This document shows positions 7,716 through 58,823 of a stretch of DNA of 59,794 nt, one piece after another. A model generated the notes under the pieces. The model saw nothing but the letters and a program-made list of their open reading frames with translations. It made no database searches and had not been told where the DNA came from. Numbering within the stretch: position 1 is the first letter of the stretch; each line of letters starts with the position of its first letter. The DNA lies in IMG/VR virus record IMGVR_UViG_3300013131_004046, positions 1 to 59,794 of that record, one strand, 5' to 3'. Source of the stretch: a virus. The translations under genes and the position numbers were made by a program.

Positions 7716-7747
7716 ACACATATTTTAAAAATATTCTAACAAATAGA

Positions 7748-7758
7748 TATATTTATAG
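7748..7758 (+). promoter_or_regulatory. Late-type promoter motif
   Basis: TATATTTATAG, 30 nt before the ATG at 7789. A good match to the phage motif, with a longer leader than average. Confidence 0.55.
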
Positions 7759-7788
7759 AATAAAAATAATTTATTTAAAAATAAAAAA

Positions 7789-9111
7789 ATGGGAGGATTA
7801 AAACCTATAGGAAGCGAAAAACTTCACGGAAACGAAAAGTTACAACGAATTATGGAAATTGCTAACTACAAATTTGCAACTTCAGTAAAGTCAGACGATA
7901 ATACATCGACAGAATACAGATTAAAATTGGCTGATGGAAATTCTTACGAAATTGTTAGAGAAAAACAAGGATATATAATTAAAAAAAATATCACAGAAAA
8001 TGTTTCTGACTATATCGAACCAATGAAAAATCGTAGATATTTCAATTCATATTCACAGGCTTTGAAAAAAATAAATTTAATGTCAAAAGAAATGAATGAA
8101 CTTTACGGTAATTCAAACGGACTTGAGTTATTTGGTGAGGCAAAGTCATTTAAATTGAAAGTTCCTAAACCTAAAGCGGATTTAGAAACCCCTCCCGCAG
8201 CACCTACTTTACCTCCGCCATCACAAACCACACCTGCACCAGCACCATCAGAACCAATGCCATCTCCAGCACCAAGTGCTGACGCATCATCGACTCCTCC
8301 TCCGAGCCCAACAGGAGATTCACCTATGGGGGGATCTATGGGTACAGAAAATACTGGAGGATCTTCAGATTCAGAAGAACCTATGGACGACGTTCCAATG
8401 GACGATGAAGAAAATGATGATATAGAAGAACCTACAGATGATGAAGAAACAGATGGGAAGGACCCATTCAGAATGATTCAGAAATTAGTAGGTAAGTTGA
8501 CACAAAAAATACGTAAATTTCCTAAGGATGAGGAAATGACTGCAGAAAATGTTAAATATATTATTAATTCTATTCTTTCGGCATTGGATTTAACATTATT
8601 AGATGAAGATGATGTCGAGGAAATCATGACAAAATTTGAAAATGAAGAAGAAGGTGATGAAGAAGATTTACCTGATCAAGAAGGTAATATAGAAGATGAG
8701 GGACCTGTAGAAGATGAAGACATGAAAGAACCTGAAGGTGAAATGACAGAATACAGTTACAGAAATAGATTTAGAAAACGAATTGGAGGAGGTTTAGATA
8801 ATACAGAAAATGAAATGTTTGGAGAATCTTTAGTGGACGCAATAATTTCTAGTTATTTTAACCCTGAAAACGAGAAAATAATGAATGAAGAAAAAAGGTT
8901 TGAAAGAAAAAAAATAATCAGAGAAAATTACAAGGTTAATAAATTAGAAGTTGAAAGGTTGTCTGAAAGCACTTCACAAATGAGAAAAGCTTTGGAATTT
9001 ATAAAATCATATCCACAAGCAGAAGTATTGGGAACGACCAACAAAAAAAATATGGTAATAAAATTAGGTAATGACCAGTATAAAATAACACCTAACGGTA
9101 AATTTTTATAG
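7789..9111 (+). CDS. Hypothetical protein, Pro-rich linker and acidic centre
   Basis: 440 residues, not recognised. A folded N-terminal part (1-125) is followed by a Pro/Ala/Ser linker (about 130-180), a strongly acidic stretch, a short helical segment (about 225-285), a second acidic stretch and a basic C-terminal domain ending in KLGNDQYKITPNGKFL. The order resembles the acidic scaffold protein at 18237. It begins a chain of four overlapping genes running up to the terminase, so a head-assembly role is plausible but unproven. Confidence 0.75.
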   Translation: MGGLKPIGSEKLHGNEKLQRIMEIANYKFATSVKSDDNTSTEYRLKLADGNSYEIVREKQGYIIKKNITENVSDYIEPMKNRRYFNSYSQALKKINLMSKEMNELYGNSNGLELFGEAKSFKLKVPKPKADLETPPAAPTLPPPSQTTPAPAPSEPMPSPAPSADASSTPPPSPTGDSPMGGSMGTENTGGSSDSEEPMDDVPMDDEENDDIEEPTDDEETDGKDPFRMIQKLVGKLTQKIRKFPKDEEMTAENVKYIINSILSALDLTLLDEDDVEEIMTKFENEEEGDEEDLPDQEGNIEDEGPVEDEDMKEPEGEMTEYSYRNRFRKRIGGGLDNTENEMFGESLVDAIISSYFNPENEKIMNEEKRFERKKIIRENYKVNKLEVERLSESTSQMRKALEFIKSYPQAEVLGTTNKKNMVIKLGNDQYKITPNGKFL

Positions 9112-9515
9112 TGAATTATTTAATTTACATAAATGAATTAGGCCCAAATTATAGGGGGGAAAACATTTATGAATTTATATTTTCTGACGTTTTGGACGTT
9201 TGGGGGGAAAATTGGGATTCAAAACCTGCAAATGGATATCCCGAACCTCCCGAATTGGAAAATGTAAAAAAAGTTGGGGTTTTGACAACTTCAGAAATGA
9301 AATTATCCTTGATTCAAAATTCGGATATTTTCTCAGTTTTGGATTCAATGCAAGGGGTCATATGTTTGGGATGGGAAAATGATGAAGAACAAGATTTTGA
9401 TAATAAAAAACGGTTAGTTTTTTCTTTTGGTGAAAGTGAAAAATTAATCAAAGATAAACTATATGAAAGAGACATAGTTTTAGAATTTGAAAAAAAAGTA
9501 GTATATGAAAACTAA
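9111..9515 (+). CDS. Hypothetical protein, GTG start
   Basis: 134 residues, not recognised. It starts with GTG at 9111, sharing one base with the TAG stop of the previous gene (TAGTG), which implies translational coupling. The protein has a compact alpha/beta composition with several Trp (WGENWD) and a Pro-rich turn (YPEPPE). It overlaps the start of the next gene by 11 nt. Confidence 0.7.
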   Translation: MNYLIYINELGPNYRGENIYEFIFSDVLDVWGENWDSKPANGYPEPPELENVKKVGVLTTSEMKLSLIQNSDIFSVLDSMQGVICLGWENDEEQDFDNKKRLVFSFGESEKLIKDKLYERDIVLEFEKKVVYEN

Positions 9516-10554
9516 ATCAAACATTGCAAAACTTTTAGAACACGGATATCATTTTGGTACAATCTCTCAATTGAACAACCAACAAATTAATTTTTTAATT
9601 GAGAGAATGAAAAAAGAAGAGGAAAAAGAAGCATTTCAAAAATCAACAATACCTTCACAAACTGTTTTGAAAGGAACCTTAACTGATTTGGCTGCAACCG
9701 GTGTTGATGTTAAAGACGGTAATGTTAAGTATGACCAAGCAACAGGAGAAGTTACTGTAATGACCAAAGAAGGTGAAGTCACGGAGGATATGGGTATAGA
9801 TTATGCAACGGGGTATAACCCAAACGAAGATGGTGATAATGATGGTATACCAACAACAGAAGGAGAAATTACAGAAAAATTTAAATCAAAAGCTCAACAA
9901 GGGTTATTTTTTGCAAGATGTAAAAAATGCAGTAATGAAAATTGTAAATGGTGTAAAATGGCCAAAGAATTTGCCGATTCAACAACAAAAAAAGAGTATA
10001 AAAAAATGCCAAAGAAATTAAATCCCGAAAAAAAAGTTTCTAAAAATACAAATGAAAGTTATGAATTAGAAATGGAAAAAGAACTTCTTAGAATTTTAGA
10101 AAATCATATAAACCCTTCTATGACAAAAACTCAATTTGTTAATACATTAATGGAAAAAAAAGAATCCATGATGTTAAAATCGCCAATCAAAAACAATCTT
10201 TTTAGTAAAAACTCAGGCATGGAAATGAAAAAATCATTGGGTAGTGAGATGGAAGAAAATACTAAAGAAAAAGAAAGAACAAAAACAAAACCAGGTACCA
10301 AACCAAAAACAAGACCTAATGATAATCCATTTGATGACCCAAATCCTGGTGTAGAAGAAAAACCAAAAGCTAACACTAAAGAAAAAGAAAGAACAAAAAC
10401 AAAACCACGTACAAAACCAAAAACAAAACCTGGAGACAATCCATTCGATGACCCAAATCCTGATGTAGAAGAAAAACCAAAAGCTTCAGATGAAAAAACA
10501 AAAAACGAATTTTTATCCCTAATAAACAAAGCTTTAAATATGAAAAATGAATAA
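9505..10554 (+). CDS. Hypothetical protein with Cys4 motif and 38-residue tandem repeat
   Basis: 349 residues of unknown function. In the middle, FKSKAQQGLFFARCKKC leads into CKKC-x4-CKWC, a likely zinc-binding knuckle (about 139-150). The C-terminal third has two copies of a 38-residue Lys/Thr/Pro unit (TKEKERTKTKP... NPFDDPNP), and the chain ends with a short helix. The basic low-complexity tail could bind DNA. It overlaps both neighbours (11 and 8 nt), so it is part of a tightly coupled operon. Confidence 0.7.
   Translation: MKTKSNIAKLLEHGYHFGTISQLNNQQINFLIERMKKEEEKEAFQKSTIPSQTVLKGTLTDLAATGVDVKDGNVKYDQATGEVTVMTKEGEVTEDMGIDYATGYNPNEDGDNDGIPTTEGEITEKFKSKAQQGLFFARCKKCSNENCKWCKMAKEFADSTTKKEYKKMPKKLNPEKKVSKNTNESYELEMEKELLRILENHINPSMTKTQFVNTLMEKKESMMLKSPIKNNLFSKNSGMEMKKSLGSEMEENTKEKERTKTKPGTKPKTRPNDNPFDDPNPGVEEKPKANTKEKERTKTKPRTKPKTKPGDNPFDDPNPDVEEKPKASDEKTKNEFLSLINKALNMKNE
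10261..10488 (+). repeat. Tandem duplication of a 114-nt unit
   Basis: Two in-frame copies (10261-10374 and 10375-10488) encode a Lys/Thr/Pro-rich segment ending NPFDDPNP-x-VEEKPKA. The near identity at the DNA level points to a recent duplication. Confidence 0.8.
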
Positions 10555-38062: not shown

Positions 38063-38788
38063 TTATTTTAAACTTTTTAATTTCATTATTGCCTCAATTA
38101 AAACCTCAACATCTTTTTCACAATATTCTGAAATTTCTTTTAATTTATTATGAGACCAATATGAATCATGGACCATACTACCATTAACCTCACCGTCTTT
38201 TGGTGTGGGTATGTCTAAACAAGCACACATCAAATCCAAAGAACCGATTGCGGTATATGCACCATATTGCCATATTTCTTTTGTATCAATTGCCTTAACC
38301 TCCCATGGTTTAGTATCATAAGACGGAAGTATTTTTGAGGGCATGATTCCATTAATGATCATTCGTTTTGCTAACATTGGAATGTCAAAATTTTTTAGGT
38401 TGTGTCCACACAAATAAAAATCTAACTTCTGACAACGATTTAATAAATCTCTAACTTCAGTAAGAAGTTTATACTCATCGTCACTTGAAAAAGTTTGTTT
38501 TTTTGTTTCGCCATTCTCCAAAACAAATGCCATAGAAACACAAACAATTTTTGCAAATTCAGGAACAAGTGCCGCTCGTTTTTTGAAAACAAGATCCATA
38601 TGTTCTTCAGTTGTTTTATCAATCCCCAACTCTTTGTCCTCGGGAAATCTTTTTAAAAACCAATCAAAATATTTGTCAAATTGTTCGGCAACTCGTGGGT
38701 TTGAATTTATACAAGTTTGATAGTCGGCACAACCACCAACCGTTTCAATGTCAATAAATAAAATTTTTTGTAGTGGGATATTAATCAT
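38063..38788 (-). CDS. 3'-5' exonuclease, DnaQ/PolB-like
   Basis: 241 residues. DEDD exonuclease signatures: Exo I FIDIETVGG (D, E), Exo II GHNLKNFDIPML (D) and Exo III YCEKDVEVL (D with preceding Tyr, so DEDDy type). Similar stand-alone PolB-type exonucleases are found in bacteria. Probably a proofreading, repair or nucleotide-recycling activity. Overlaps the cytidylyltransferase gene by 8 nt. Confidence 0.88.
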   Translation of the reverse strand: MINIPLQKILFIDIETVGGCADYQTCINSNPRVAEQFDKYFDWFLKRFPEDKELGIDKTTEEHMDLVFKKRAALVPEFAKIVCVSMAFVLENGETKKQTFSSDDEYKLLTEVRDLLNRCQKLDFYLCGHNLKNFDIPMLAKRMIINGIMPSKILPSYDTKPWEVKAIDTKEIWQYGAYTAIGSLDLMCACLDIPTPKDGEVNGSMVHDSYWSHNKLKEISEYCEKDVEVLIEAIMKLKSLK

Positions 38789-39236
38789 TTTTTATATTTT
38801 TTAATATATCAGGGTTTTGTTTTACTGTTTGTATTGTGATTAGATCTTTAATTTTTGTTGTTGACCAATTATGAGATCTTGTTGTGTAAACAACATCAAT
38901 TGGTAAATGATCTCCAGTAAAACGTTTACCGATATAATCATCACCTAATATTCTAACATCAGGTCTATAAAATTCTATCAATCTTAATAAATCTGTTTCG
39001 TCATCATAACAAACAACTTCATCAATATATTTTATTGACATTAATGTTTTGTATCTTTCATAAAGAGGAACAACTGGTTTATACTTTGTGTTTCTTGTTT
39101 CAGAAGGATCTCTTTGTAAAAAAACCATAAAGTAATCACAATTTTCTTTTGCGGCTTCAAAGGTATAAATGTAACCCGGATGTAATAAGTCAAAGTTACC
39201 CGCAGTAAATCCTATTTTTCCTTTTTTTAAGTCCAT
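38781..39236 (-). CDS. Cytidylyltransferase-like protein (TagD/RfaE family)
   Basis: 151 residues. GFTAGNFDLLHPGYIYTFEAA carries the HxGH-type nucleotide-binding motif (here HPGY, with the last position altered). SETRNTKYKPVVPLYERYKTL follows the family pattern, and RSHNWSTTKIKDLI stands in for the RTxGISTT motif. Such enzymes activate glycerol phosphate, heptose phosphate or related groups as CDP/ADP derivatives, which suits a donor supplier for the neighbouring glycosyltransferases. The motif changes leave activity uncertain. Confidence 0.75.
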   Translation of the reverse strand: MDLKKGKIGFTAGNFDLLHPGYIYTFEAAKENCDYFMVFLQRDPSETRNTKYKPVVPLYERYKTLMSIKYIDEVVCYDDETDLLRLIEFYRPDVRILGDDYIGKRFTGDHLPIDVVYTTRSHNWSTTKIKDLITIQTVKQNPDILKNIKND

Positions 39237-39238
39237 AT

Positions 39239-40453
39239 TTAATTTATTAATGATTTATAAAACTCAGATCTGAGTTTTGATACGTTATTTAAATTGTATT
39301 TATCTTTTACGGTTTCGTATAGTTTTTGACCCAAATCATAAACTAATGATCTATTTTCATTTAATTTCTTTACAAATTTGGACCAATCACTGTGATTTCT
39401 TGCTTCATCAACTAACAATGCATTACCATCAACAAATTTACCATTTTCTAATGAATGTTTTAAATCAATGGTATATGGACCAATTTTTGATGCAATTAAT
39501 GCTTTTTTATAGAAGCCCGCCTCAATAACTTTAAGTTGTGATTTCATCCTATTAAAAATATGATTTTTTATAGGTGCTAAAGAAACGTCAAATTTGGAAT
39601 AGTTTCTTGCATATTCATTGACAGGTCTTGTCCAAACCCTAACGTAGTTTTCTTTTTCTAAATCTAAAAAATTACCATCCTCAAACTTACCAAGAAACTT
39701 TTTGTAATCGTCTGAAACAATTTTATAATTGTCAGTGAAAATTTTTTCGTAATTGACCCAAACCGTTTCTTCAGGTTTTATTGGTCTTTGTTTTTTTTCA
39801 CCTGTATTTGGATTAATTTCAGTAACAACTCCTCTTGTGTCAAAGCCACAAATATAATATTGTAGGTCCTTTTGAATTGGTAACAATTTTGGAACCATAG
39901 AATCTAACAACTTCAAATCATGTAAGTGTGACGATCCACCAAGCCAACCGACTCTTAATTTTTCGGACTGAGTTGTTGGTTCGTTGAATTGAGGGTCGTT
40001 CGGATCTATTGCATTTGGAAGAACCAAAACATTTTTGTTTAGTTTTCTGATTTCTGTTGCAAATATTTCAGTAGTTGTAGTAACGTAACTTGCCTCCCTA
40101 AGATTATTTTTTATTCCTTCATGTACTTTTCCTTGGACTATCAAATTATGTATAGGATGTTCTTTAGTTGGTAGCCAATAATCATCAATATCAAAAATAA
40201 CTATCAAACCCATGTTTTTGAGTTTTTTAGTAATTTCAACAGATTTTTGGTAATCTTGACCAATAGTCCTGTGTACATGAACTATTTGATATTTTTTCCA
40301 ATAGTTATCATCATCCAATCTTGGTTGATAATCAATATCTACATGAAAGTCGTTTGGATAATTTATTTGTAAATTTACGTGAGGATCTACTGATCTAAAT
40401 TTACCTACACCAGATTGGTCGGATGGTAATACTAATACATTTATTTTTGACAT
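39239..40453 (-). CDS. GT-B glycosyltransferase
   Basis: 404 residues. INVLVLPSDQSGVGKFRSVDPHV opens the N-terminal domain (the SGVGKFR loop is typical of glycan-binding starts), and VGWLGGSSHLHDLKLLDSMVPKLL opens the donor domain. YSKFDVSLAPIKNHIFNRMKSQLKVIEAGFYKKALIASKIGPY matches the conserved C-terminal nucleotide-sugar segment. It is the first gene of the 31-40.5 kb leftward enzyme block. Confidence 0.82.
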   Translation of the reverse strand: MSKINVLVLPSDQSGVGKFRSVDPHVNLQINYPNDFHVDIDYQPRLDDDNYWKKYQIVHVHRTIGQDYQKSVEITKKLKNMGLIVIFDIDDYWLPTKEHPIHNLIVQGKVHEGIKNNLREASYVTTTTEIFATEIRKLNKNVLVLPNAIDPNDPQFNEPTTQSEKLRVGWLGGSSHLHDLKLLDSMVPKLLPIQKDLQYYICGFDTRGVVTEINPNTGEKKQRPIKPEETVWVNYEKIFTDNYKIVSDDYKKFLGKFEDGNFLDLEKENYVRVWTRPVNEYARNYSKFDVSLAPIKNHIFNRMKSQLKVIEAGFYKKALIASKIGPYTIDLKHSLENGKFVDGNALLVDEARNHSDWSKFVKKLNENRSLVYDLGQKLYETVKDKYNLNNVSKLRSEFYKSLIN

Positions 40454-43185: not shown

Positions 43186-45363
43186 ATGTCATATCAAAAT
43201 ATAAATCAATACGTTTATCAAAAATATAGATTAAATCTCATCTATGATGGACAAGATATGTCGTTAGCATCAGATGAAAAAGATTTTAATGAAGAAGTGG
43301 TTTTTTCCCCTTATTTGATTGCACAAACTTATGGAAAAAAATTACCAATAAGTTTTGACACCAATAATGACAATTCTGCACAAAATATACCTTTATATTA
43401 TAAAGAGTATAACTATAACAATATTGTTGTGTCAGAAAATTTTTATGAAATTGACAAACCATGCTTTAGTGCTGATTCTGTTTGTGACATTGGGTTAACA
43501 TCGATTGATAATGGATTGGTCAATCAAATGACAGGAGAAACTATTTTTTTTACAAACGGTTTATTTGCTGATTCGGTAAAATTTAATAGGTTGTATTATG
43601 ATAGAAGATTAAAATTATTTCAAGTTACTGGGTACACTTTACAAAATCATGTTTTTTCAGGAAGACCAAACAATACTTTATATGAAATGGTCTCAAAGGA
43701 AAATCCTTTGTTTGGCCGATACGTTGAGCTTTATGGTGGTTTTTATCAAGGATTTTACAAGTTGTTTGGGTATGACTACGAAATATTACCTGAGAGGATG
43801 AATAAAGGTTGGTCGGTAGAAATGATAATCAAACCAAGATTGGTGAATGAATTTTTACCAAACTCTGAAGAAACTACTTTGAACTCTATTTACCCAAACA
43901 ACAAAAATACCTTTTTCTATTTTGGTTCGAGAGCTGAAAATAAATTTTATCACCATGCTGACGGATCTCCAAAATGTTTAACAGGATACACAAGAGTTAC
44001 AACTCCTTTAGCAAATTGCGTCCAAACATGTGCTTGTTGTGATTACAACATAACAAATAGTAGATGTGTTTATGTTTACCCACCGAGATCGAAAAATAAT
44101 CAACATGACTCACATGTTGATTATGGTTGTAATATTTGTAACGGTAGTAAAGATATAAATTTAACTTGTGGATGTAGTTGTGGTCAAGAACCTTGCAAAA
44201 CTTGTGGTTGGGAATGCCAATATCATACTTGTGCATCAATTATATACCCAACTCCAACTCCAACACCCACACCGACCCCAACTCCAAATTGCGAACATCC
44301 AAAACCAACATGTACTCCTTCTTGTACAAAATGTAACGAATGTAATGATTGTTATCCTGCATGTACTCCAACAGGATTCACATCAATAGAGGATACCTGT
44401 GAGAAAGACCCTAAGATGGACATTTTATCTAATAACATTTCGTTTAGATTATGCGGAGACCCAAAAAATCCAAGTATTGGTGTAAGAGTTTTAAAAATTA
44501 CCGGGTCTTGTGAAACAACTGGTACTTGTCCAACTGGATTGACTTTTGTGACAGGTTATACAATACAGGACATTTGTACCGATCCAATATACCCAAGATG
44601 TGAAATAGAATGTCCTGAGTGGTTAGATTTGGAGCATTGGATACAATTAGATTTTGTATGGGAACGATATACTTATTTTGACTTATGTGATTTATTTTAT
44701 TTTGGAGGTTTGGGGGATATAACAAAAGTAGAGTATTTAGATTCCTTGGCAAATAGTGCTGTAAATTTAATAGAACCCCCAATTACAACTGGAAAAGAAA
44801 TTGCAAAAACTGTTGAGATAGTTAAATTAAACGATAGGTGGTTAGAAGATGAAAAATATAGAAGAGGTAGATTAAAAATTTATGTTAATGGAAAAATATT
44901 TTATGTAATAAATGATTTTGAAGAGGTAATACCAAGAGCTTTAAATACCGATAAAGAAAAACAAATTGGGGTCCCTTTCAATATTTCGTGGGGTGGAGGA
45001 ACACAGGGACTACATGAAAATTTAACATTTTCGTCTTGTACAGGATTAACTTCCAATTACATACAAGATCCAGAATGTTTCCCAAATAATATATTAAGCG
45101 GGACCTCATTTTCTGCATTAACAACAAACATACTTTTAGAAAAATATTTTGCAGGAACTTTTGAAGGTGGAATAAGTCAATTCAGAATGTATGTTGAGCC
45201 ATTGTCTTCTGACGAAGTGAAACATAATTTTAAAATTTTAAAAAATAAATTTAGATTATTCGATCCAGATTGTCCAAATTGCGATCCAAAAGAATGTCTA
45301 CCAAATGATCTTACATATGTCATTAACAATTCGGTCACAACAACAACAACAATTTTATTATGA
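43186..45363 (+). CDS. Large virion protein with Cys-rich insert and lectin-like part
   Basis: 725 residues, likely fibre or surface adhesin. The N-terminal ~240 residues and the part after ~400 look like a split jelly-roll/LamG-type domain ([47 protein letters not shown]). Between them (about 270-410) is an insert very rich in Cys ([40 protein letters not shown]) with a Pro-Thr repeat (about 358-368). The Cys pairs suggest disulfide or metal cross-linking. The C-terminus has more Cys and a TTTTT stretch. Overlaps the next gene by 4 nt. Confidence 0.75.
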
Positions 45364-45794
45364 GTTTAAGTGTTACAATAGAAAGTTTAAATTATGATGG
45401 AGAAGAAGCCCAAGTTCTTTTTAAACCAGATAATAGTAATGATGTTATTAATTTGGGAAATGTAATTTTACCTTTTATTTTTTATCCGAGTTTATTGATA
45501 CCACCAAGAGAAATTTATGGTTCATATACTGTTGTAGTAGATTCCACAAATTGCAGACCAAACTGCGTTAATATGTTAAATATACCAAGACCCACCCCAA
45601 CACCAACTCCGAATGTTACTCCAACAAAAACCACAACACCAACTCTGACCCCAACAATCACACCAACACCATCTATCGATCCTTGTAAAATACCCAGTCC
45701 TACCCCAACATCGACATTAACTCCGACACCTACACCAACCAAAACCACAACTCCAACACCAACACCAAGTTGGAATCCGTGTATTACACTATAA
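45360..45794 (+). CDS. Short virion protein with mucin-like Pro-Thr tail
   Basis: 144 residues. A beta domain (1-75, [16 protein letters not shown]...) is followed by about 70 residues of [13 protein letters not shown] repeats with a few Cys (DPCK, NPCITL). Such Thr-Pro stretches are typical O-glycosylation acceptors and stiff linkers. The gene is coupled to the Cys-rich protein (ATGA) and precedes the glycosyltransferase fusion by 112 nt of AT-rich spacer in which I see nothing else. Confidence 0.75.
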
Positions 45795-45906
45795 TTTTTT
45801 GAGTTAGAGATTGAGTTTAAATTCAGATAGTTCGAAATCCATAATAATTAGATGATTTTTTCTAAATATTTTTTATTATTCTATAAAAAAACAAAACTAT
45901 CTATTG

Positions 45907-48768
45907 ATGAAAATTAATATATTATACGTTGTTCCTCACTTATCAACAGGAGGGATGCCTCAATTTGTTTTAAAAAGAATTCAATCTTTACCAAATAACT
46001 TTAACGTAAAACTTGTTGAGTATTCGTTTTTTGGAGATCAGTATGTTGTTCAAAGAAATAAAATAATAGATCTGATAGGTAAAAATAATTTTCATTCATT
46101 GGGAACATCAGACCAAATTGAAAAAAAATATAAGTTAATTGATATTATAAAAGAAAATCAAATTGATGTCGTTCATATTGAAGAAATTTCTGAAGGATTT
46201 GAAAGTTTTAATCAAATTCCAATTAGTATTCTAAATGAGTTATATGATAACAAAAGAACTTGGAAGATTGTTGAGACGTGTCATAACATTTGGTTTGATT
46301 CAAAAAACAGAAAATTTCATCCTGACTCATATTTGTTTGTAACTCCATATCATATCAAAACCTTTGAATTGGAAAAAGTTTATAAAGAAGTTCTTCAATA
46401 CCCAATTGAAAATAAAAAACCATCAATACTTAAAAAAATCCAAACCAAAGAAAAATTAAACTTTGACTTAAAAAAAATTCATGTTTTGAATGTTGGTTTA
46501 TGGACACAAGGAAAAAATCAAAAAGAAGGAATTGAAGTTGCAAGGTTTTTAGAAAAAACTCACCTTTATTTACATTTTCATTTTGTTGGAAATCAAGCGA
46601 AAAATTTCAAATCATATTGGGAACCAACTATGAATGATTTACCAACTAACGTTACAATATGGAAAGAAAGAAATGATGTTGAATTGTTTATGATCGCGTC
46701 AGACTTTTTTATGTTTAACTCAACTTGGGAATGTAATCCGTTGGTATTAAAAGAGTCTATATCGTATGGTTTAAAAATATTAGCAAGAGACCTACCACAA
46801 TATTGTGATATGTATAAAAATTACATTAAACTAATCGAGTCTGATAAAATTTCAGATATATCAAACAATCTACTTGATCTAATAAATTCTAATTTTAATT
46901 ACGATGTTTGTTACGATTATGAATTTTCAAATCAATTATCTGATTTCTATTTTAAAGTTATGGGATTGGATTTTACCAAAAACAATAAAGTAATTAAAGA
47001 CATAAAAATAAATAGACATTTTGTTTTGAATCCATTTATAGAAATACTCTCTAAAGATAGTAGTTTATATGAAGTGAATTTTTATGATCAGAATGATAAT
47101 CTTACATATTTTAACAAAATAAAAAACAATTCTTGGGTTAAATTATATCGACAATATTACACAAAGTGGAAAACAGAAATAAAAGAAAACGGTCAGGTTA
47201 TTTTTTTTGATGATTTAAATTTAGAAAACAAACGAGTTTATATTTCTTTTGAATCAAAATCTTTGGGTGATACATTGGCTTGGATTCCATACTGTGAAGA
47301 GTTTAGAAAAAAACATAATTGCAAACTTATTGTTTCGACTTTTTTAAATGATTTATTTGTCGATCACTATTCTGAAATAGAATTTGTTAAACCAGGGAGT
47401 TCTGTATCTGACGTTTTTTGTCGATATCAATTAGGTTGGTTCTATAATCAAAATAATGAATTTGATTTAAATAAACACCCACACGATTTTAAACTACAAC
47501 CATTACAAAAAACCGCAACAGATATATTAGGTTTAGAGTATGAAGAAATAAAACCAAGACTTAATTTACCGATTATACCAAAAAAGAAAAAAGTAGGTAT
47601 TGGATTTCATTCAACGGCTCAAGCTAAATATTGGAACAATCCAAATGGTTGGCAAGGTGTTGTTGATTATTTAACATCACAAGGATATGAATGTATGATT
47701 TACTCTAAAGAAGGTAATGGATACATGGGAAATAATTATCCAAAAGGAGTTACACTATTTAGTGGTGGTAACTTAGAACAAGTAATAAATGATTTATTAA
47801 GTTGTGAATTTTTTATAGGTTTAGGTTCAGGACTTTCATGGTTAGCTTGGGCTTGTAAGTTACCGGTAGTTCTCATTTCGGGATTTAGTGAAAAATTCGT
47901 TGAAACAAAATTAGATACGTATCGAGTTATTAACGAAAATGTATGTCATGGATGTTTTAATAAAGAAAGATTAAATGCTGGTGATTGGAATTGGTGCCCA
48001 TTACATAAAGGAACTGAAAAAATGTTCGAATGTTCCAAACAAATAACATCAGAAATGGTAATAAAAGAAATAAATAAAATTATGAACAAAGAAAAAAATA
48101 CATTTCGAGTGGATGAGGTTTTGTTTGATTGGGGTAAAAAAAGCGAATGGTATGTTAGTCAAGCGACTAAAGAAATATTCGAATATAACATATATGAAAG
48201 ATTATTTGAAGTAGAAGAAGGGGATATTGTGGTTGATTTAGGAGCATCATTAGGACCATTTACATATTCAATACTTTCTAAAAATCCAAAAGAATGTTTC
48301 GTTGTGGAACCTTTAACCTACCATGTTGATATTTTGAAAAAAAATCTAAATCGAAATAATGTAAAAATTATACAAGGGGCCATTTCGGATAAGAAAAAAT
48401 TAGAAATTACCTGGGATGGAATTACAGAAATTTCACCAACATTTACTTTTGAAGAATTTGTCTTTGAAAATAATATTAAAAAAATAGATTTTTTGAAATG
48501 TGATTGTGAAGGAGGTGAGTATGATGTTTTCTCAAAAGGAAATATTGAGTTTCTGAAAACGATCCCAAAAATTGTTGTTGAATTTCATTTAAGAGATAAC
48601 GAAGATTACCACCAATGTAAGTTCAGATGGTTTAGAGATAATATATTAAATAATTTTGAAAATTTTGAGGTTTATTCTTTGGATGGTGTTGATATAAAAT
48701 GGAATTTATGGAATGAACACTTCATTGAATATTATAACGAAGTAATAATTTACATAGATAATAAATAG
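45907..48768 (+). CDS. Trifunctional fusion: GT-B + BAHT-like heptosyltransferase + FkbM methyltransferase
   Basis: 953 residues. Domain 1 (about 1-350) is GT4-like: INILYVVPHLSTGGMPQFVLKR, LNVGLWTQGKNQKEGIEVARFL, and the donor segment NSTWECNPLVLKESISYGLKIL. Domain 2 (about 440-735) is GT9-like: SLGDTLAWIPYCEEFRKKH, GIGFHSTAQAKYWN, GLGSGLSWLAWACKLPVVLISG. It has four Cys (C680, C683, C697, C709: CHGC...WCP...FEC) like the iron finger of autotransporter heptosyltransferases (TibC/Aah type). Domain 3 (about 740-953) is an FkbM-type SAM methyltransferase: VVDLGASLGPFT, FVVEPLTYH, FLKCDCEGGEYDVF. I start at ATG 45907 rather than the TTG before it. The stop abuts the convergent gene with no spacer. 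Confidence 0.85.
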   Translation: MKINILYVVPHLSTGGMPQFVLKRIQSLPNNFNVKLVEYSFFGDQYVVQRNKIIDLIGKNNFHSLGTSDQIEKKYKLIDIIKENQIDVVHIEEISEGFESFNQIPISILNELYDNKRTWKIVETCHNIWFDSKNRKFHPDSYLFVTPYHIKTFELEKVYKEVLQYPIENKKPSILKKIQTKEKLNFDLKKIHVLNVGLWTQGKNQKEGIEVARFLEKTHLYLHFHFVGNQAKNFKSYWEPTMNDLPTNVTIWKERNDVELFMIASDFFMFNSTWECNPLVLKESISYGLKILARDLPQYCDMYKNYIKLIESDKISDISNNLLDLINSNFNYDVCYDYEFSNQLSDFYFKVMGLDFTKNNKVIKDIKINRHFVLNPFIEILSKDSSLYEVNFYDQNDNLTYFNKIKNNSWVKLYRQYYTKWKTEIKENGQVIFFDDLNLENKRVYISFESKSLGDTLAWIPYCEEFRKKHNCKLIVSTFLNDLFVDHYSEIEFVKPGSSVSDVFCRYQLGWFYNQNNEFDLNKHPHDFKLQPLQKTATDILGLEYEEIKPRLNLPIIPKKKKVGIGFHSTAQAKYWNNPNGWQGVVDYLTSQGYECMIYSKEGNGYMGNNYPKGVTLFSGGNLEQVINDLLSCEFFIGLGSGLSWLAWACKLPVVLISGFSEKFVETKLDTYRVINENVCHGCFNKERLNAGDWNWCPLHKGTEKMFECSKQITSEMVIKEINKIMNKEKNTFRVDEVLFDWGKKSEWYVSQATKEIFEYNIYERLFEVEEGDIVVDLGASLGPFTYSILSKNPKECFVVEPLTYHVDILKKNLNRNNVKIIQGAISDKKKLEITWDGITEISPTFTFEEFVFENNIKKIDFLKCDCEGGEYDVFSKGNIEFLKTIPKIVVEFHLRDNEDYHQCKFRWFRDNILNNFENFEVYSLDGVDIKWNLWNEHFIEYYNEVIIYIDNK

Positions 48769-49335
48769 TTAACCACAAGGACCAATAGTTTCCCAAACTA
48801 AATCTCTACCAACGGTATGCCACCAATATATCGACACACCATCAGAATAAAAACCTTCAGGTGCATAATCACCACCACAACCACCGAATGTGTAAAGAAG
48901 ACTGTTTGTAGAGTCAAAACTATAAAATGAAGCACCGGCAGAACATGCAATGCCAGGAGCTTCACCAAATGAAAAAGACATATCGTCACAAGTAGGTGTT
49001 GGGCAATTACCTGCTGGGGTTAAAACTCCATTAGATACTAAATGAATTCGTCTACCATCAGAATAAAATCCATTAGGTGCCACATTCAAACCATCACCGC
49101 AAAAACCATTCAGATATAATATTCCATTACTACCCACCAAATACTGTATTAGTGATGCACTACAAGCTGCGGTAATTGGAGTTGTTGTACCATCACTAAA
49201 ACCATATTCGACAGTCTTGCAAACTACAGATGGCGGTACAACAACACCTCCGATTTTAGTTATAGATGCTTTAGGTATCCCTCCGATTTTTACAATGTTT
49301 TCCCAAGGAACCCCAATTACTTTAGTTATCGACAT
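48769..49335 (-). CDS. Virion protein with duplicated GFYSDG module
   Basis: 188 residues, start MSITKVIGVPWENI at 49335, 1 nt after the stop of the fibre gene. A signal-less N-terminal part with KIGGIPKASITKIGG precedes two related Cys-containing modules: ILYLNGFCGDGLNVAPNGFYSDG and LLYTFGGCGGDYAPEGFYSDG, each ending in a beta strand. The repeat suggests a small receptor-binding or decorating tip made by duplication. It is last in a leftward fibre operon. Confidence 0.7.
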   Translation of the reverse strand: MSITKVIGVPWENIVKIGGIPKASITKIGGVVVPPSVVCKTVEYGFSDGTTTPITAACSASLIQYLVGSNGILYLNGFCGDGLNVAPNGFYSDGRRIHLVSNGVLTPAGNCPTPTCDDMSFSFGEAPGIACSAGASFYSFDSTNSLLYTFGGCGGDYAPEGFYSDGVSIYWWHTVGRDLVWETIGPCG

Positions 49336-49336
49336 A

Positions 49337-52123
49337 TTAGAGTTGTACCCAGAAATTATCAGGGTCAAATCTTATTACAACCACATCTGTATTATTATAA
49401 AGGTTATGTCCAATAAGTCTAACATATTGTCCTGAAGCTGTCGGTGCAGTTTCAGTAACATTACCCGTTGTTGGTGAAATGTATAGTGGTAATCCAGGAA
49501 TTGATGTTCCTAATTGGTCATGTTTTATTGTCGATATTTGACCTTCTAAAAGAACCGGTAATACTGTTTGCTCTGCTCCCGTATTATTTAAACATATACC
49601 AAGTAGATTTGTCGAATTAGCGGCAAAGTCAGCGTCCGCTTGTTCCCAAGCCCCATTTCTCATGACTAATAATTCACCAGCATTGACGTTATTACCCCCA
49701 ACTTGTTGATTTGTAAGTATCGTACCATTGTAATATCCTGTCGTCCAATTAGTATCCAATTGAATTCCATTATTTACTGAAGTTACTCCTTCATCATTTA
49801 CATGTCCCCACCCTGATAAACTTCCATCTCCTCCACCATAAAAAGTATTACCCCCTCTCCATGAAAGTTGTGCAGAATTTCCGTTAATCGAAGTAGCTCC
49901 AACTAATGTCAAACCAAAACCATTAAAAGTTAAATTAGTTTCGGATGTAATTCCCCCCGAACCATCAGAAGTCAAAACCTCATTGTCCAACCCACCAACT
50001 GTTGGTGAAACACCGCTAGTCCCATCAGTACCTGATGTTCCTGCCTGTGACATTAACGCCCAATTACTACTAAAAGGAGGTGTTGGTATTCCAGTATTTC
50101 CATTTATCAATGAAACATAAGAACTACCATTAAATTCAACAACATCATTTATGTTGTAAGTTGACATTAGATTCCAAGAACCACTCCAATTGAACGAAAT
50201 ACCACTACTACCTGATGTACCATCCGTTCCACTAGTCCCTGAAGAACCATCTGTACCACTTGTGCCTGAACTACCACTTGTGCCTGACGTTCCGCTAGTT
50301 CCTGAAGTTCCATCTGTTCCACTTGTTCCTGAAGTCCCCGAACTACCACTTGTACCATTTGTTCCTGAGGTTCCGCTTGTTCCCGATGAGCCACTAGTTC
50401 CTGAAGTACCACTGAACCCTGAAGATCCACTTGATCCTGATGTTCCATCGGTACCGCTAGTACCTGAAGTTCCGCTTGAACCTGAACTTCCCGATGTACC
50501 ACTTGATCCTGATGTTCCGTCTGTACCTGAAGTACCACTTGTCCCGTCAGTACCCGATGTTCCCGAAGATCCTGAAGTACCGCTCGACCCTGAACTACCA
50601 CTAGTTCCATCTGTTCCGCTAGTTCCTGAAGATCCACTAGTACCATCTGTACCGCTAGTCCCTGAAGAACCACTAGTACCATCTGTTCCTGATGTACCAC
50701 TTGTACCTGATGTACCATCGGTACCTGAAGTACCGCTAGATCCTGATGTTCCACTTGATCCTGAAGAACCACTAGTACCATCTGTTCCGCTTGTTCCTGA
50801 ACTTCCACTTGATCCTGATGTTCCACTTGTTCCTGAAGTTCCATCTGTTCCGCTAGTTCCTGAACTACCACTTGTGCCTGACGTTCCGCTAGTTCCTGAT
50901 GTTCCTGAACTTCCGCTTGTACCGCTTGATCCTGAAGTTCCATCTGTACCTGAAGTACCGCTTGATCCTGATGAACCGCTCGATCCCGAAGTCCCGTCTG
51001 TTCCGCTAGTTCCTGAACTACCACTTGTGCCTGACGTTCCACTTGTTCCTGATGTTCCTGAACTTCCGCTTGTACCGCTTGATCCTGATGAACCGCTCGA
51101 TCCCGAAGTCCCGTCTGTTCCGCTAGTTCCTGAACTACCACTTGTGCCTGACGTTCCGCTAGTTCCTGATGTTCCTGAACTTCCGCTTGTACCTGAACTT
51201 CCACTTGAGCCAGATGTTCCTGAAGTACCCGAACTTCCACTAGTTCCATCAGTACCTGATGTTCCGCTAGTCCCTGAAGAACCTGAAGTTCCACTCGACC
51301 CTGATGTCCCGTCAGTACCACTTGTCCCTGAGCTACCGCTAGTACCACTTGTGCCTGACGTTCCACTTGTTCCTGATGTTCCTGAACTTCCGCTTGTACC
51401 GCTTGATCCTGAAGAACCTGAAGTTCCATCTGTTCCGCTAGTTCCTGAACTACCACTTGTGCCTGACGTTCCGCTAGTTCCTGAAGTTCCATCTGTACCT
51501 GAAGTACCGCTTGATCCTGATGAACCGCTTGTTCCACTAGTCCCGCTCGATCCCGAAGTCCCGTCTGTTCCACTTGTTCCTGATGAACCACTAGTCCCAT
51601 CCGTTCCACTAGTACCTGAAGAACCTGATGTTCCATCAGTCCCCGAAGTACCATCTATACCACTTGTTCCGTCTGTTCCTGAACTACCATTTGTACCACT
51701 AGTCCCATTGGTACCTGAAGATCCACTCGACCCACTAGTACCCGAAGTTCCGCTTGTTCCCGATGTTCCATTCGTTCCGTTAGTTCCTGATGTTCCATCC
51801 GTCCCGTCTGTTCCTGAAGTCCCACTTGTTCCCGATGTTCCTGTAGAACCGCTCGATCCACTAAAACTTATTTGAGTCCAATCAGTTATTGTGAGTGTCC
51901 ATGGAGGAGCATTTAATTTATAGTAGTCAGTCCCACCACTCACACCAACTAACATTCCTGATCGTCTTCGTAAAGTGGGGATCGAATCCAAATCTGTAAG
52001 AGTATCAACGTTTCTTAACCCATCGATTCCATAGAGAGGGTCAATTACTGGATATTGATCTGTAATTTCCGTTGGTGATATAAAACCAATAACCTCAACT
52101 CCACCTGATAAACTAAAACTCAT
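49337..52123 (-). CDS. Collagen-like fibre protein with Gly-Thr/Ser repeats
   Basis: 928 residues. An N-terminal domain (1-90) is followed by a long run of Gly-x-y triplets (GTSGSSGTDG-type, about 90-640). A short WSGSWNLMSTYNINDVVEF module, like a carbohydrate-binding CBM5/12 repeat, comes next (about 645-690). The C-terminal domain (about 710-928) contains a Gly-rich piece (GGNTFYGGGDGS) and a strand-rich end. The triplets may form a triple helix or an extended glycosylated shaft. Long tail fibre or head fibre. Confidence 0.8.
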   Translation of the reverse strand: MSFSLSGGVEVIGFISPTEITDQYPVIDPLYGIDGLRNVDTLTDLDSIPTLRRRSGMLVGVSGGTDYYKLNAPPWTLTITDWTQISFSGSSGSTGTSGTSGTSGTDGTDGTSGTNGTNGTSGTSGTSGTSGSSGSSGTNGTSGTNGSSGTDGTSGIDGTSGTDGTSGSSGTSGTDGTSGSSGTSGTDGTSGSSGTSGTSGSSGSSGTSGTDGTSGTSGTSGTSGSSGTSGTDGTSGSSGSSGTSGSSGTSGTSGTSGTSGTSGSSGTSGTDGTSGSSGTSGSSGTSGTSGTDGTSGSSGTSGTSGSSGSSGTSGSSGTSGTSGTSGTSGSSGTSGTDGTSGSSGSSGSSGTSGSSGTSGTSGTSGTSGSSGTSGTDGTSGSSGSSGSSGTSGTDGTSGSSGTSGSSGTSGTSGTSGTSGSSGTSGTDGTSGTSGTSGSSGSSGTSGTDGTSGSSGSSGTSGSSGTSGTDGTSGTSGTSGTDGTSGSSGTSGTDGTSGSSGTSGTDGTSGSSGSSGTSGSSGTSGTDGTSGTSGTDGTSGSSGTSGSSGSSGTSGTSGTDGTSGSSGSSGFSGTSGTSGSSGTSGTSGTNGTSGSSGTSGTSGTDGTSGTSGTSGTSGSSGTSGTDGSSGTSGTDGTSGSSGISFNWSGSWNLMSTYNINDVVEFNGSSYVSLINGNTGIPTPPFSSNWALMSQAGTSGTDGTSGVSPTVGGLDNEVLTSDGSGGITSETNLTFNGFGLTLVGATSINGNSAQLSWRGGNTFYGGGDGSLSGWGHVNDEGVTSVNNGIQLDTNWTTGYYNGTILTNQQVGGNNVNAGELLVMRNGAWEQADADFAANSTNLLGICLNNTGAEQTVLPVLLEGQISTIKHDQLGTSIPGLPLYISPTTGNVTETAPTASGQYVRLIGHNLYNNTDVVVIRFDPDNFWVQL
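50205..51855 (-). repeat. Gly-Thr/Ser triplet repeat region
   Basis: About 1.65 kb of 9-nt units (roughly 180 Gly-x-y triplets), x and y almost always Thr, Ser or Asp. DNA copies are imperfect but include long near-identical blocks, so slippage or recombination can change its length. Confidence 0.85.
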
Positions 52124-52132
52124 ATTTTATTT

Positions 52133-52987
52133 TTAATTACATAACCAACAGTCAACACTACCTCCAAAACTAAAGAATGTTCGATAAATGTTGTATGTTA
52201 TTGGAAATCCGTTTATATCTATAATTATTAAAGTCCCAATATTATTTGTTGGTATATTTGGACCAGAACAACTCGAATTGCTTTCTTGAAACCCTGTAGG
52301 TTGAGATAAAGATACCGGTATCAAAATATAACCATATCCATTTCCTAAAGGATATGTTACAAAACTATTTGTTGGGTTATTAGTTAATAAAAAGGTCAAA
52401 TTAGAAATTACTTCGCCACTTGTAATTGTTGTTCCTGAAAACTTACTATAATAAATCCCCGAAGGCGCTGGAACGGGTGATGGTGTCGGTGTAATTGTAG
52501 GCGTAACGGTTGGTGTTGGCGTAATTGTAGGTGTGACAGTTGGTGTAACACTTGGTGTGTTTGTATTTGTTGGTGTAACACTTGGTGTGTTTGTATTTGT
52601 TGGTGTAACAGTTGGTGTGTTTGTATTTGTTTGTGTAACAGTTGGTGTGTTTGTATTTGTTTGTGTTGGTGTTATAGAAGGTGTTGGAGTCATCGTAGGG
52701 GTAAGACCTGGAGTTACTGTCATCGTTGGTGTTGGTGTTGGTGTTGGTGTCTGAGTTGGTGTTGGAGAACAAAAAAAAGTAATTAGTTTACTACATCTTA
52801 AATTATCGACCACTTTAATTACAATATCATTTGTATTATCTAAAGGCGGCGGAATAGACAACGTTAATGTTGGAGGAACAGAAATAAAATTGGTAATCAA
52901 ATAACAATAGGTAACCGTTATGTCACAAGCATAAACCTCAAAAGGAGAATTTCCTGATACATAGTTTACAATTATTTGTTTTGACAT
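52133..52987 (-). CDS. Virion protein with long Thr/Asn/Pro linker
   Basis: 284 residues. An N-terminal beta domain with several Cys (1-75) is followed by a ~100-residue linker of [15 protein letters not shown] and TITPTPT units (about 75-175), then a C-terminal globular domain ([16 protein letters not shown]... to SVDCWLCN). Same architecture as the proteins at 45360 and 57507. It precedes the collagen-like fibre gene by 9 nt. Confidence 0.75.
52461..52768 (-). repeat. Thr-Pro-Asn coding repeat
   Basis: Tandem in-frame units, including about four copies of a 30-nt unit encoding [10 protein letters not shown]-like peptides. It is a protein-coding low-complexity repeat, not a CRISPR array. 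Confidence 0.85.
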
Positions 52988-55136: not shown

Positions 55137-55839
55137 TTTTGCGTTTGCAACATTCTGTTTTGGTGATCGATATACATCTCAAACTAACCGTTTAATAGAT
55201 AGCTTATCCTTTGTTGACAATAAACATTTATTATTTGTTATTACTGATGACGTTAATAAAATAAAAAAATTACCTTGGGTCAAAGTTAAAAATATAAAAG
55301 AATTTAACGAAAAATATTCTTCGTATGAAAAAAATTATTATGATTTTGATTTTTCAGTAAAAAGATATTCTTTGAGGTTTGCATTAGAAAATGGTTACAC
55401 AAAAGTTGTTCTAATGGACACTGATGTAGTTGCTGGTACAAGGTTCACCGATAAAAATGTTGAGGATTCTTTTTTAAACAATACAATTGTTGGTCCTGTA
55501 ATTTATAATTTTGAAAATGAATTAAGTTTTGGATCAGAGTTAGGAAAACGTTTTTTATATTACGAGAAAAAATTTAATGTATCTTTTGAAAAAAGTGGTC
55601 TTTGGATGCCTGAAGATTGCATCCAATACATCAATATTGATAAAAAAACTTTTGAAAATTTTTTAAATGTGTGGGACAAGTGTATAGAAATAAAATATGA
55701 AGATGGTTTGTTAAACGTTCCTGCAGGAAACATTGATGAAATGTCATTTTCAGCCCTTTTAAATGGAGTATCTCTGAGTAACAATTTTGATAAAAGTTTA
55801 AATGTTTTTACACCTCAACACGAAATTTGGTACAGATGA
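55126..55839 (+). CDS. GT-A (GT8-like) glycosyltransferase
   Basis: 237 residues. FAFATFCFGDRYTSQTNRLIDSL is the donor-binding start, VVLMDTDVVAGTRF the DxD metal site, and GNIDEMSFSALL the late acidic motif. LWMPEDCIQYINI resembles GT8-type acceptor loops. Overlaps both neighbours (11 and 4 nt). Confidence 0.75.
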   Translation: MENNFAFATFCFGDRYTSQTNRLIDSLSFVDNKHLLFVITDDVNKIKKLPWVKVKNIKEFNEKYSSYEKNYYDFDFSVKRYSLRFALENGYTKVVLMDTDVVAGTRFTDKNVEDSFLNNTIVGPVIYNFENELSFGSELGKRFLYYEKKFNVSFEKSGLWMPEDCIQYINIDKKTFENFLNVWDKCIEIKYEDGLLNVPAGNIDEMSFSALLNGVSLSNNFDKSLNVFTPQHEIWYR

Positions 55840-57479
55840 GTTTAACTTTAGTTACTGGTTTATGGGACATTGGTCGAGAAAATTTAAAAGAAGGTTGGTC
55901 AAGATCATTCAATCATTACTTAGAAAAATTTGACCAATTACTTCAAGTTGATTGTAACATGATAATTTTTGGTGATGAAAACTTAAGTAAGTATGTTTTT
56001 GAGAGACGTAACGAATCAAACACCCAATTTATTTTAAGGGATTTAACTTGGTTCAAAGAAAACGAATTTTATGATAAAATACAACAAATAAGAAAAGATC
56101 CTAAATGGTATAACCTTTCTGGTTGGTTGAAGGATTCCACTCAAGCAACCTTGGAGATGTATAATCCTTTAGTGATGTCAAAAATGTTTCTACTTCATGA
56201 CGCTAAAATATTAGACAAATTTAATTCAGAAAAAATTTTTTGGATAGATGCTGGAATCACTAACACTGTACATCCTGGATATTTTACTCATGACAAAATA
56301 TTAGATAAAATAAATTCTTTCTACAATAAATTTTTATTTGTGTGTTTTCCTTATGATGCTGAAACTGAAATACATGGATTCGATTACCCAAAACTTAATG
56401 GTTATGCAAAAACTATTGTTAAAATGGTCGCTAGAGGTGGTTTTTTTGGTGGGGCCAAAGAAACAATATCAACGGTAAATTCTTTATATTATGATTTAAT
56501 GTCAAATACATTAAAAAATGGTTTGATGGGAACCGAAGAAAGTTTGTTTTCAATATTATTGTATAAACACCCGTCTCTATTTGATATTGAGATGATAGAA
56601 CAAAACGGTTTAATGTATAAATTTTTTGAAGATTTAAAAAATAAAAAAAAGAAAGAGGTAAATCATTCAGAAGGAGTTGGTTTATATGTAATAACATATA
56701 ATAGCCCAAACCAATTTGAGACCTTGATTAAAAGTATATTAGAGTATGATAGTAGTTTGATCACCTCAACAAGAAAATATTTATTAAACAATTCCACAGA
56801 TCACACAACTACTCAAAAATATTTAGAATTGTGTGACAAATATGGGTTCGAACACATCAAAAAAGATAATATAGGAATTATGGGGGGTCGAATATTTGTT
56901 GCAGAACATTTTGATCAAACTGATTTAGGTTACTATTACTTTTTTGAGGACGATATGTTTTTTGTAGGTAAAAAAGACGAAGATATTTGTAGAAGCGGGT
57001 TTAAAAGGACCGTTCAAAATTTGAACAACAAATTACAATCTTTAATAAAAAAAGAAAAATTTGATTTTATTAAATTAAACTTCACTGAATTTTATGGTAC
57101 ACACGAGAAACAATGGGCTTGGTATAACGTTCCTCAAAGTTTTAGAGAATCTCATTGGCCAAACAATAAAAATTTACCACATGATGGCATTGACCCGAAC
57201 TCCCCAAATTTGAAATTTGAAAATATAAAAATCCACATGGGACTTCCGTATGCATCGGGAGAGATATACCTTTCAAATTGGCCAATATTGATGTCTAAAG
57301 AGGGTAATTACAAATGTTACTTAAAAACAAAATTTGCCCACCCTTTTGAGCAAACATTAATGAGTCAATGTTATCAAGAAACGATAAAGGGACACATAAG
57401 ACCTGCAGTATTATTAATTTCACCAACCGAACACAACAGATTTGATTTTTATCCTGATCAAGATAGAAAAGAATGTTAA
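55836..57479 (+). CDS. Bifunctional WlaTC/HtrL-like + GT2 glycosyltransferase
   Basis: 547 residues. The N-terminal half (about 1-280) parallels the gene at 54300: TLVTGLWDIGRENL, IFWIDAGITN, RGGFFGGAKETI, TEESLFSILL. The C-terminal half (about 285-547) is a GT2 unit: GLYVITYNSPNQFETLIKSIL, NNSTDHTTT, YYFFEDDMFF. Start at ATG 55836, overlapping the previous TGA (ATGA); a TTG 9 nt upstream is less likely. The last enzyme of the run, it precedes a Pro-Thr virion protein. Confidence 0.8.
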   Translation: MSLTLVTGLWDIGRENLKEGWSRSFNHYLEKFDQLLQVDCNMIIFGDENLSKYVFERRNESNTQFILRDLTWFKENEFYDKIQQIRKDPKWYNLSGWLKDSTQATLEMYNPLVMSKMFLLHDAKILDKFNSEKIFWIDAGITNTVHPGYFTHDKILDKINSFYNKFLFVCFPYDAETEIHGFDYPKLNGYAKTIVKMVARGGFFGGAKETISTVNSLYYDLMSNTLKNGLMGTEESLFSILLYKHPSLFDIEMIEQNGLMYKFFEDLKNKKKKEVNHSEGVGLYVITYNSPNQFETLIKSILEYDSSLITSTRKYLLNNSTDHTTTQKYLELCDKYGFEHIKKDNIGIMGGRIFVAEHFDQTDLGYYYFFEDDMFFVGKKDEDICRSGFKRTVQNLNNKLQSLIKKEKFDFIKLNFTEFYGTHEKQWAWYNVPQSFRESHWPNNKNLPHDGIDPNSPNLKFENIKIHMGLPYASGEIYLSNWPILMSKEGNYKCYLKTKFAHPFEQTLMSQCYQETIKGHIRPAVLLISPTEHNRFDFYPDQDRKEC

Positions 57480-57506: not shown

Positions 57507-58823
57507 ATGGAATTTTTTATTAAGAAGAATGCCACTTTGCCTCTTTTAAAAATGCAAGTTGTAAAAGACGGAAGAAGTGACTACAACAACATGATGGAAT
57601 TCATCGAAGAATCTGCGGTGTTCTTTTCGATGGTGAATGTAGATAATGGCATTCCAAAAATAACCACAAGACCAGCGGGGTTTGTAGAAAAAATTCAATT
57701 GGACCCAAATGCCAGCCCTGAATATTATGTTTACTATCAATTTAAACCACAAGACACAAATAAAGTAGGTAAGTATGAAGGACAATTTCTTTTTAGAAAT
57801 GAACAAGGTACTTTAGTTTTACCAATAAGAGATAAATTATTTATAAACGTACAGGAAAGTTTTATTGCGGATGACTTACCATATGAAAGTTGTTATGTAA
57901 TTGATTTTCCATGTTGTGTTGCTCCTCCACCGATACCGCCACCAGTTACTACAACCACAACCTTATCACCGCCATTACCTGTTGTTGATTTAAGTTTATT
58001 GGTCGATATTAATCTTGGATCTATAATAGTTAATTATTTTCTTTTTGCGTCTGAACCATTATTTGAGGACTATGATGTTTCTTTTGATACAACAATGTTC
58101 ACTTATACAGGTAGTCCAATATTTTTTAGTACGGGTATAACAATAAATGCGGGTACTATTAGTGGTGTTACAGAAGTAAATATTGACTCTGATTTTAATA
58201 ACCTAACAAGAGAATTTGAATTTTCTAATTTTACAGTAACAACAACTGGAATTACTTTTGACTTTAACATAACAACAGAAGTAATAATACCAACACCAAC
58301 ACCTACCCCTTCAGTCACGCCAACAATGACTCCTACTGTGACTCCTACTGTGACACCTACTGTGACACCTACAAATACTCAAACACCAACACCAACGGTA
58401 ACACCTACAAATACTCAAACACCAACACCATCTATTTCTCAAACACCAACACCGACCCCAACTCATACACCAACCCCAACTCCTACACCAGCGTCAGAAA
58501 TTACCCTAAGCGTTGATGCAAATGTAAAACCAGGGTCTGCAATATGTGATTTTAACATTACTTCAAATTATTCTGTTGGGTATAACTACAGTTTACCTGT
58601 AATGGTAATTGCAAACCTTATATCGGGAGGAACAACTTCTTTCGATGGTAATTTGACAATCTTGGCAGGGGAACTTACAGGATTTACACAAATAGTCAAA
58701 GAAGATATAAATTACAATGATCTTTCTTTAGAAGGTGAATTGTTTGTTGGAATGGTTGAACCTCCAATTGGGGAGTATGTAGTTTTGGGTAATGTTTCTT
58801 TTGACCCCTACCCATCACCATAA
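57507..58823 (+). CDS. Virion protein with duplicated beta domains and mucin-like linker
   Basis: 438 residues. An N-terminal domain (1-130) is followed by a Pro/Thr hinge, beta domain A (about 160-255, [19 protein letters not shown]...), a long [12 protein letters not shown] linker (about 262-330), and beta domain B (about 333-438, [20 protein letters not shown]...) which looks like a copy of domain A. Arrangement and composition fit an O-glycosylated fibre or capsid decoration. In-frame sequence continues for 27 codons after the TAA (see finding). Confidence 0.78.
58289..58495 (+). repeat. Thr-Pro coding repeat
   Basis: Tandem in-frame ACACCN-type units encoding [15 protein letters not shown] and TNTQTPTPT. 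Similar repeats code for linkers at 45590-45775 and 52461-52768. Confidence 0.85.

Follow-up and report, generated by a model that had tools for sequence, protein, structure and literature searches.

A phage gene joining GT4, TibC/Aah-type and FkbM domains is a candidate O-glycosylation enzyme for a collagen-like tail fibre protein

As shown in Table 1, it was found that three enzyme domains are joined in a single open frame of 953 residues, read from an ATG at 45907-48768 of a phage DNA of 59,794 nucleotides (IMG/VR record IMGVR_UViG_3300013131_004046; this whole stretch is called the window). The gene is a fusion of a GT4 glycosyltransferase, a TibC/Aah-type (BAHT) glycosyltransferase and an FkbM methyltransferase, and the catalytic motifs of all three are intact. 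Judging from sequence and neighbourhood, the product probably (at a probability of roughly 0.64) serves as an O-glycosylation enzyme for the collagen-like tail fibre protein encoded at 49337-52123, with a glycan that would be extended by the GT4 domain and capped by the FkbM domain. A mechanical ORF call places the start at a TTG at 45904, making the frame one codon longer. In a promoter and terminator scan, no signal rose above shuffled sequences.

Table 1. Features of the window discussed in the text
Feature	Position	Strand	Remarks
GT4 (GT-B) glycosyltransferase domain	45907..47022	+	Residues 1-372; EX7E 275-283, GGMP loop 15-18
TibC/Aah-type (BAHT) domain, N-terminal beta-barrel and GT-B core	47023..48090	+	Residues 373-728
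FkbM-family SAM methyltransferase domain	48091..48765	+	Residues 729-953; DLGASLG, CEGGE
Asp455, equivalent of TibC catalytic base Asp110	47269..47271	+	Same residue in all 80 aligned BAHT sequences
Four-cysteine iron-finger segment (Cys680, Cys683, Cys697, Cys709)	47944..48033	+	From alignment with TibC
Collagen-like tail fibre protein, 928 aa, proposed acceptor	49337..52123	-	G-[TS]-[SD] array at roughly 50120-51860
ORF of 199 aa between enzyme and array protein	48769..49368	-	No Pfam or PHROG match
Thr-Pro repeat protein preceding the fusion gene, alternative acceptor not favoured	45360..45794	+	phrog_15511
Nucleotidyltransferase related to HldE C-domain / TagD, possible donor supply	38781..39236	-	TIGR02199, TIGR01518
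Separate phage glycosyltransferase beside the nucleotidyltransferase	39239..40453	-	phrog_7162, E 6e-45

An earlier note on this DNA had read GT4-like motifs, a GT9-like domain resembling TibC and Aah, and a SAM-binding FkbM domain from one 953-residue chain, and each of these assignments was borne out by domain and motif matches lying far above chance. The first domain matches PF00534 (residues 179-329, 41.1 bits against a Pfam cut-off of 26.4) and has the EX7E motif as E275...E283. The middle domain matches TIGR04414 hepto_Aah_TibC (residues 387-725, E 7e-84, 281.9 bits against an NCBIfam cut-off of 200), and TibC (4rap) is its closest solved protein (phmmer E 3e-60). The last domain matches PF05050 FkbM (residues 836-900, 39.4 bits against a Pfam cut-off of 22.7) and TIGR01444 fkbM_fam (residues 775-894, 55.6 bits against an NCBIfam cut-off of 37.7), and a motif search placed the SAM motif DLGASLG at residue 777 and CEGGE at 867. 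The whole chain was modelled by AlphaFold2 with a mean pLDDT of 82.7 and a pTM of 0.47, the relative placement of the domains being unsure and the iron-finger segment having low pLDDT. Modelled residues 364-730 superpose on 4rap_A with Z 35.8 and rmsd 2.6 over 354 aligned residues, and modelled residues 1-355 match the GT4 enzymes HepE, MshA and BshA with Z 25-29.

In TibC, four cysteines hold an iron, an arrangement required for the dodecamer and for activity, and Asp110, Arg286, Trp305 and Lys230 are likewise required for activity (PMC4358343). Arg286 contacts adenine N1, its Ala mutant loses or nearly loses activity, and it accounts for the rejection of guanine (PMC4358343). In the alignment, C680, C683, C697 and C709 of the window protein, exactly the residues that the earlier note had named, correspond to TibC C339, C342, C358 and C370, and the four cysteines are present in 79 of the 80 aligned BAHT sequences. 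A BAHT relative from a Pacearchaeota MAG (L096) has no such cysteines at the aligned positions, which may be due to misalignment or to an iron-free form. The window domain thus resembles TibC/Aah (PDB 4rap/4rb4) in fold, in the iron finger, in the catalytic Asp and in the contacts Thr226, Lys230 and Trp305; the equivalents of these last four residues are invariant among the viral sequences aligned. In contrast to TibC/Aah, it is phage-borne, fused to GT4 and FkbM domains and linked to G-[TS]-S repeat proteins, and it has Gly for Pro300 and Val for Arg286. The latter position is mostly hydrophobic throughout the phage clade (Val, Ile or Leu in the phage and methanotroph clade). In the tree, the TibC side is split from all the phage and array-linked genes with a support of 100/100, at a point where long branches meet. 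Since the Arg286 equivalent is Val, the window domain is filed as a putative non-autotransporter variant of the BAHT family rather than as an ADP-heptose-specific BAHT. Among the window neighbours tested with Pfam, the window itself being a fragment, no autotransporter was found. The array-linked BAHTs of L098-L101 and L103, which lie beside lipoprotein-like G-[TS]-S proteins, retain Arg286; the change at this residue is therefore not tied to the acceptor.

Is this fusion peculiar to the window? IMG/VR was scanned with five BAHT domains, which gave at least 557 relatives, and the best 80 were taken. The three domains were found in one frame in at least 28 loci and at least 16 distinct proteins (21 complete; the window counted). 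The same domain order in so many distinct proteins rules out an assembly error as the source of the fusion, and neither this nor a second domain falling outside the BAHT profiles, the two outcomes that the earlier note had thought fatal to its reading, was encountered. The same note knew of no described phage protein with this order. This holds for annotated phages, whereas the architecture is common in uncultivated viruses. BAHT relatives are found in just 4 of 50,697 annotated phage records, one of them from an isolate, Microcystis phage Mel-JY01.

Several other arrangements were found. L001-L003, which are 80% identical, have a GT4-BAHT fusion, while L064 and L088 have a BAHT alone with a GT4 gene 2-3 bp upstream. 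These loci resemble the window in that GT4 and BAHT occur together in a tail-gene region, but they have no FkbM domain, and the operon of L064 and L088 differs further in having HldE-like kinase and nucleotidyltransferase genes. In L045, a BAHT-FkbM gene is overlapped by a separate GT4 gene, and L058 combines GT4, a class I methyltransferase and BAHT. Microcystis phage Mel-JY01 has a protein of 1226 aa (WWT39291.1), annotated as 'methyltransferase FkbM', which also has all three kinds of domain in one chain and lies near a G-[TS]-S collagen-like protein. In contrast to the window protein, its order is GT4-methyltransferase-BAHT, it has an extra middle region, and its methyltransferase has no detectable likeness to the window FkbM domain. 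That the same activities have repeatedly been joined in different orders argues for a shared pathway.

The proposed acceptor lies about 570 bp from the fusion gene. It matches Pfam Collagen (E 1e-77) and PHROG models of tail fiber protein and collagen-like minor tail, and in its array the X position is T 132 times and S 54 times, while the Y position is S 155 times. A 561-aa ORF at 50190-51875 (+), antisense to the array (PEVPLVPDVP...), is a by-product of the repeats and probably not a gene. Long Gly-Thr/Ser-Ser triplet arrays adjoin most BAHT genes, as the repeat ORFs listed beside these genes revealed. I counted the arrays after dereplication, in loci no shorter than 10 kb, using terminase and dUTPase loci of similar phages as controls. 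A G[ST]x array was found in 32 of 47 phage BAHT loci, usually within a collagen-like tail protein, while the 47 terminase loci have none and the 22 dUTPase loci have one (1/69 controls together; Fisher p 5e-16), the terminase comparison partly measuring gene order, as that gene belongs to another module. With random genes of the same loci as the control, an array gene is adjacent to BAHT 12 times, where 4.2 would be expected (p 0.0005). About a third of the phage BAHT loci have no long array within reach; some of these are truncated contigs, and several loci scored as array-less carry short arrays, such as six SSG units in L062. Against the acceptor reading, one ORF separates enzyme from array in the window, and the nearest upstream gene encodes Thr-Pro repeats.

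Bacterial genomes offered an independent view of the linkage. In GTDB, 17 genomes have a BAHT relative. A DNA pattern of four G-[ST]-[ST] triplets matched 15 of these 17 genomes, three of whose relatives (L089, L090 and L104) may be on phage contigs, and in 14 of the 17 the matches include the BAHT contig, at distances of about 50 bp to 10 kb. One of the three, L104, has a BAHT relative and a G-[TS]-S repeat protein on a contig binned as the archaeon Nitrosotalea, which could be a phage contig. In methanotrophs and in L098-L103, the BAHT neighbours are small proteins with long repeats and, as judged by eye, with signal peptides or lipoprotein-like starts, and no phage genes were seen around BAHT in the loci inspected. 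The repeat protein paired with the methanotroph enzyme of L091 has 279 aa. BAHT is present in 15 of 251 genomes of the order to which the Methylobacter genome belongs. In that order, an exported G-T/S-S array protein is the neighbour of 8 of 9 window-clade BAHT genes, while for the ninth, in G215, the neighbour is a homologous protein, likewise exported, that carries a poly-Ser stretch in place of the array. By contrast, none of the six TibC-type genes (in five genomes) has an array neighbour (8/9 versus 0/6, Fisher p 0.0014; a partial match in G202 was left out of this comparison). At the genome level, the pattern is present in 8/9 versus 19/242 (p 5e-8). Some of these genomes had also been part of the discovery set, and four of the five new ones show the array neighbour. 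When 369 genomes of the G012 class were searched, only the two genomes already known turned up, so this gave no fresh test.

Which sugar may be transferred? In L063-L066, L077-L079, L082, L087 and L088, a small nucleotidyltransferase gene follows BAHT, mostly by 3 bp, and in most of those loci there is also a kinase gene starting about 380 bp after BAHT. Among the genes tested, the best models are the two halves of HldE (rfaE_dom_II, 90-100 bits; rfaE_dom_I, 91-126 bits with L042 and L043 included), with scores below the equivalog cut-offs. Because about ten phage loci have such HldE-like genes after BAHT, heptose is plausible as the transferred sugar. The nucleotidyltransferase of the window lies at much the same distance from HldE-C as from TagD: it scores 70.2 bits with TIGR02199, under the equivalog cut-off of 181.5, and 62.6 bits with the TagD model TIGR01518, and its best PDB match is TagD (1coz, E 5e-14). 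No complete sugar pathway was found in the 59.8-kb window, itself a fragment. Since the residue that contacts adenine is replaced by Val, ADP-heptose, though plausible, may not be the donor, and it was not taken for granted.

The replacement of Arg286 gives some room to a reading which differs from the preferred one in the donor only, namely that the BAHT domain glycosylates the triplet repeats but uses a donor with another sugar or another nucleotide, such as a GDP-, UDP- or CDP-linked one. The change to Val, Ile or Leu extends over the phage and methanotroph clade, and the Arg residue explains why TibC rejects guanine (PMC4358343). However, HldE-C-like and HldE-N-like genes lie directly after BAHT in phages that also have Val at this position, and another donor is regarded as a tentative possibility. 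It might also be supposed that the BAHT part is catalytically dead and serves as a ring-forming scaffold for GT4 and FkbM, since the TibC dodecamer depends on the iron finger (PMC4358343) and the fusion partners vary. This is very improbable; the invariance of Asp110, Thr226, Lys230 and Trp305 in the aligned viral sequences is what selection for catalysis would give.

Other readings concern the acceptor. Phage glycosyltransferases are often interpreted as modifying host surface glycans (PMC7029224), and the window has many other glycosyltransferases; the fusion could act on LPS or capsule against superinfection, its place near tail genes then reflecting no more than the clustering of accessory genes in that region. 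This is unlikely, as BAHT enzymes modify Ser residues of proteins (PMC4358343), the arrays are all but absent from the control loci of similar phages, and the same G-[TS]-S linkage occurs in bacterial chromosomes, where phage genes were not seen next to BAHT in the loci inspected. The window also encodes Thr-Pro repeat proteins at 43186-45794, 52133-52987 and 57507-58823, three of which match phrog_15511. Thr-Pro is a mucin-like context for O-glycosylation, one such ORF lies about 110 bp upstream of the fusion gene, and PT ORFs were found in 11 of 49 viral loci. Nevertheless, a PT ORF is adjacent to BAHT once against 2.5 times expected for random genes of the same loci, and the bacterial BAHT neighbours have G-[TS]-S rather than PT repeats. 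PT repeats were rejected as the main acceptor on account of this lack of enrichment, and it is unlikely that they are the acceptors at all. The earlier note had imagined a glycan built and O-methylated on the adjacent Thr-Pro or Gly-Ser repeats; the Gly-Ser/Thr part is strongly favoured by both the phage and the bacterial linkage, while the Thr-Pro part did not hold up, so that its interpretation as a whole is partly supported.

For the preferred reading, glycosylation of the collagen-like tail fibre protein, I infer the acceptor, the order of steps, the heptose, the glycan methylation, the ring assembly and the benefit as follows. The BAHT domain would transfer a sugar, most likely heptose from a nucleotide donor, to Ser/Thr of the Gly-Thr/Ser-Ser array in the 49337-52123 product. 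The GT4 domain would then attach a further sugar, and the FkbM domain would O-methylate and thereby cap the glycan, with all three steps kept together on a single scaffold by the fusion. Should the BAHT domain assemble into a ring as TibC does, it would be surrounded by many displayed copies of GT4 and FkbM. The phage may benefit from shielded or stiffened tail fibres or from altered host recognition.

In the mimivirus L230 system and in Bacillus BclA, Gly-X-Y repeats are glycosylated by enzymes whose genes accompany them; these enzymes belong to other families, and no BAHT is known to be involved. Other modification genes were also noticed. The window has a gene of the GlcNAc-transferase family PF11397 (53047-54294, E 8e-75), a family known mainly from eukaryotes, and 12 of 49 phage loci have a relative close to BAHT. 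At 55827-57479, an N-terminal HtrL/YibB domain (E 3e-17) is fused to a further region. In Synechococcus phage DSL-LC02 (L008), a comparable site close to a collagen-like protein is occupied by another set of modification domains, an FkbM and radical-SAM fusion (7389-9542).

The enzyme family itself was already known and is named by an annotation model, while the open-access literature searched yielded nothing on the array link, on the occurrence in phages or on the fusion of three enzymes. No relevant paper was found there on phage together with BAHT or on collagen-like together with heptosyltransferase (bioRxiv and most subscription journals lay outside the search), nor was a modification of Gly-Ser/Thr triplet arrays, which the tail proteins of these uncultivated phages often contain. 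There is a good likelihood that a whole branch of BAHT enzymes, so far undescribed, widespread in aquatic phages and scattered in bacteria, is dedicated to the O-glycosylation of collagen-like Gly-Thr/Ser-Ser arrays, and that phages have made shuffled multi-enzyme fusions which give tail fibres a coat of capped glycans, with heptose-donor genes of their own in some cases. If this is true, many 'collagen-like' phage fibres would be glycoproteins, with consequences for their stiffness and shielding and for host recognition, and BAHT enzymes would gain a second class of substrate outside autotransporters. The methanotroph enzyme and its exported repeat protein would then provide a simple two-gene bacterial model, and the fusion would amount to a natural assembly line in which a protein glycan is initiated, extended and methyl-capped.
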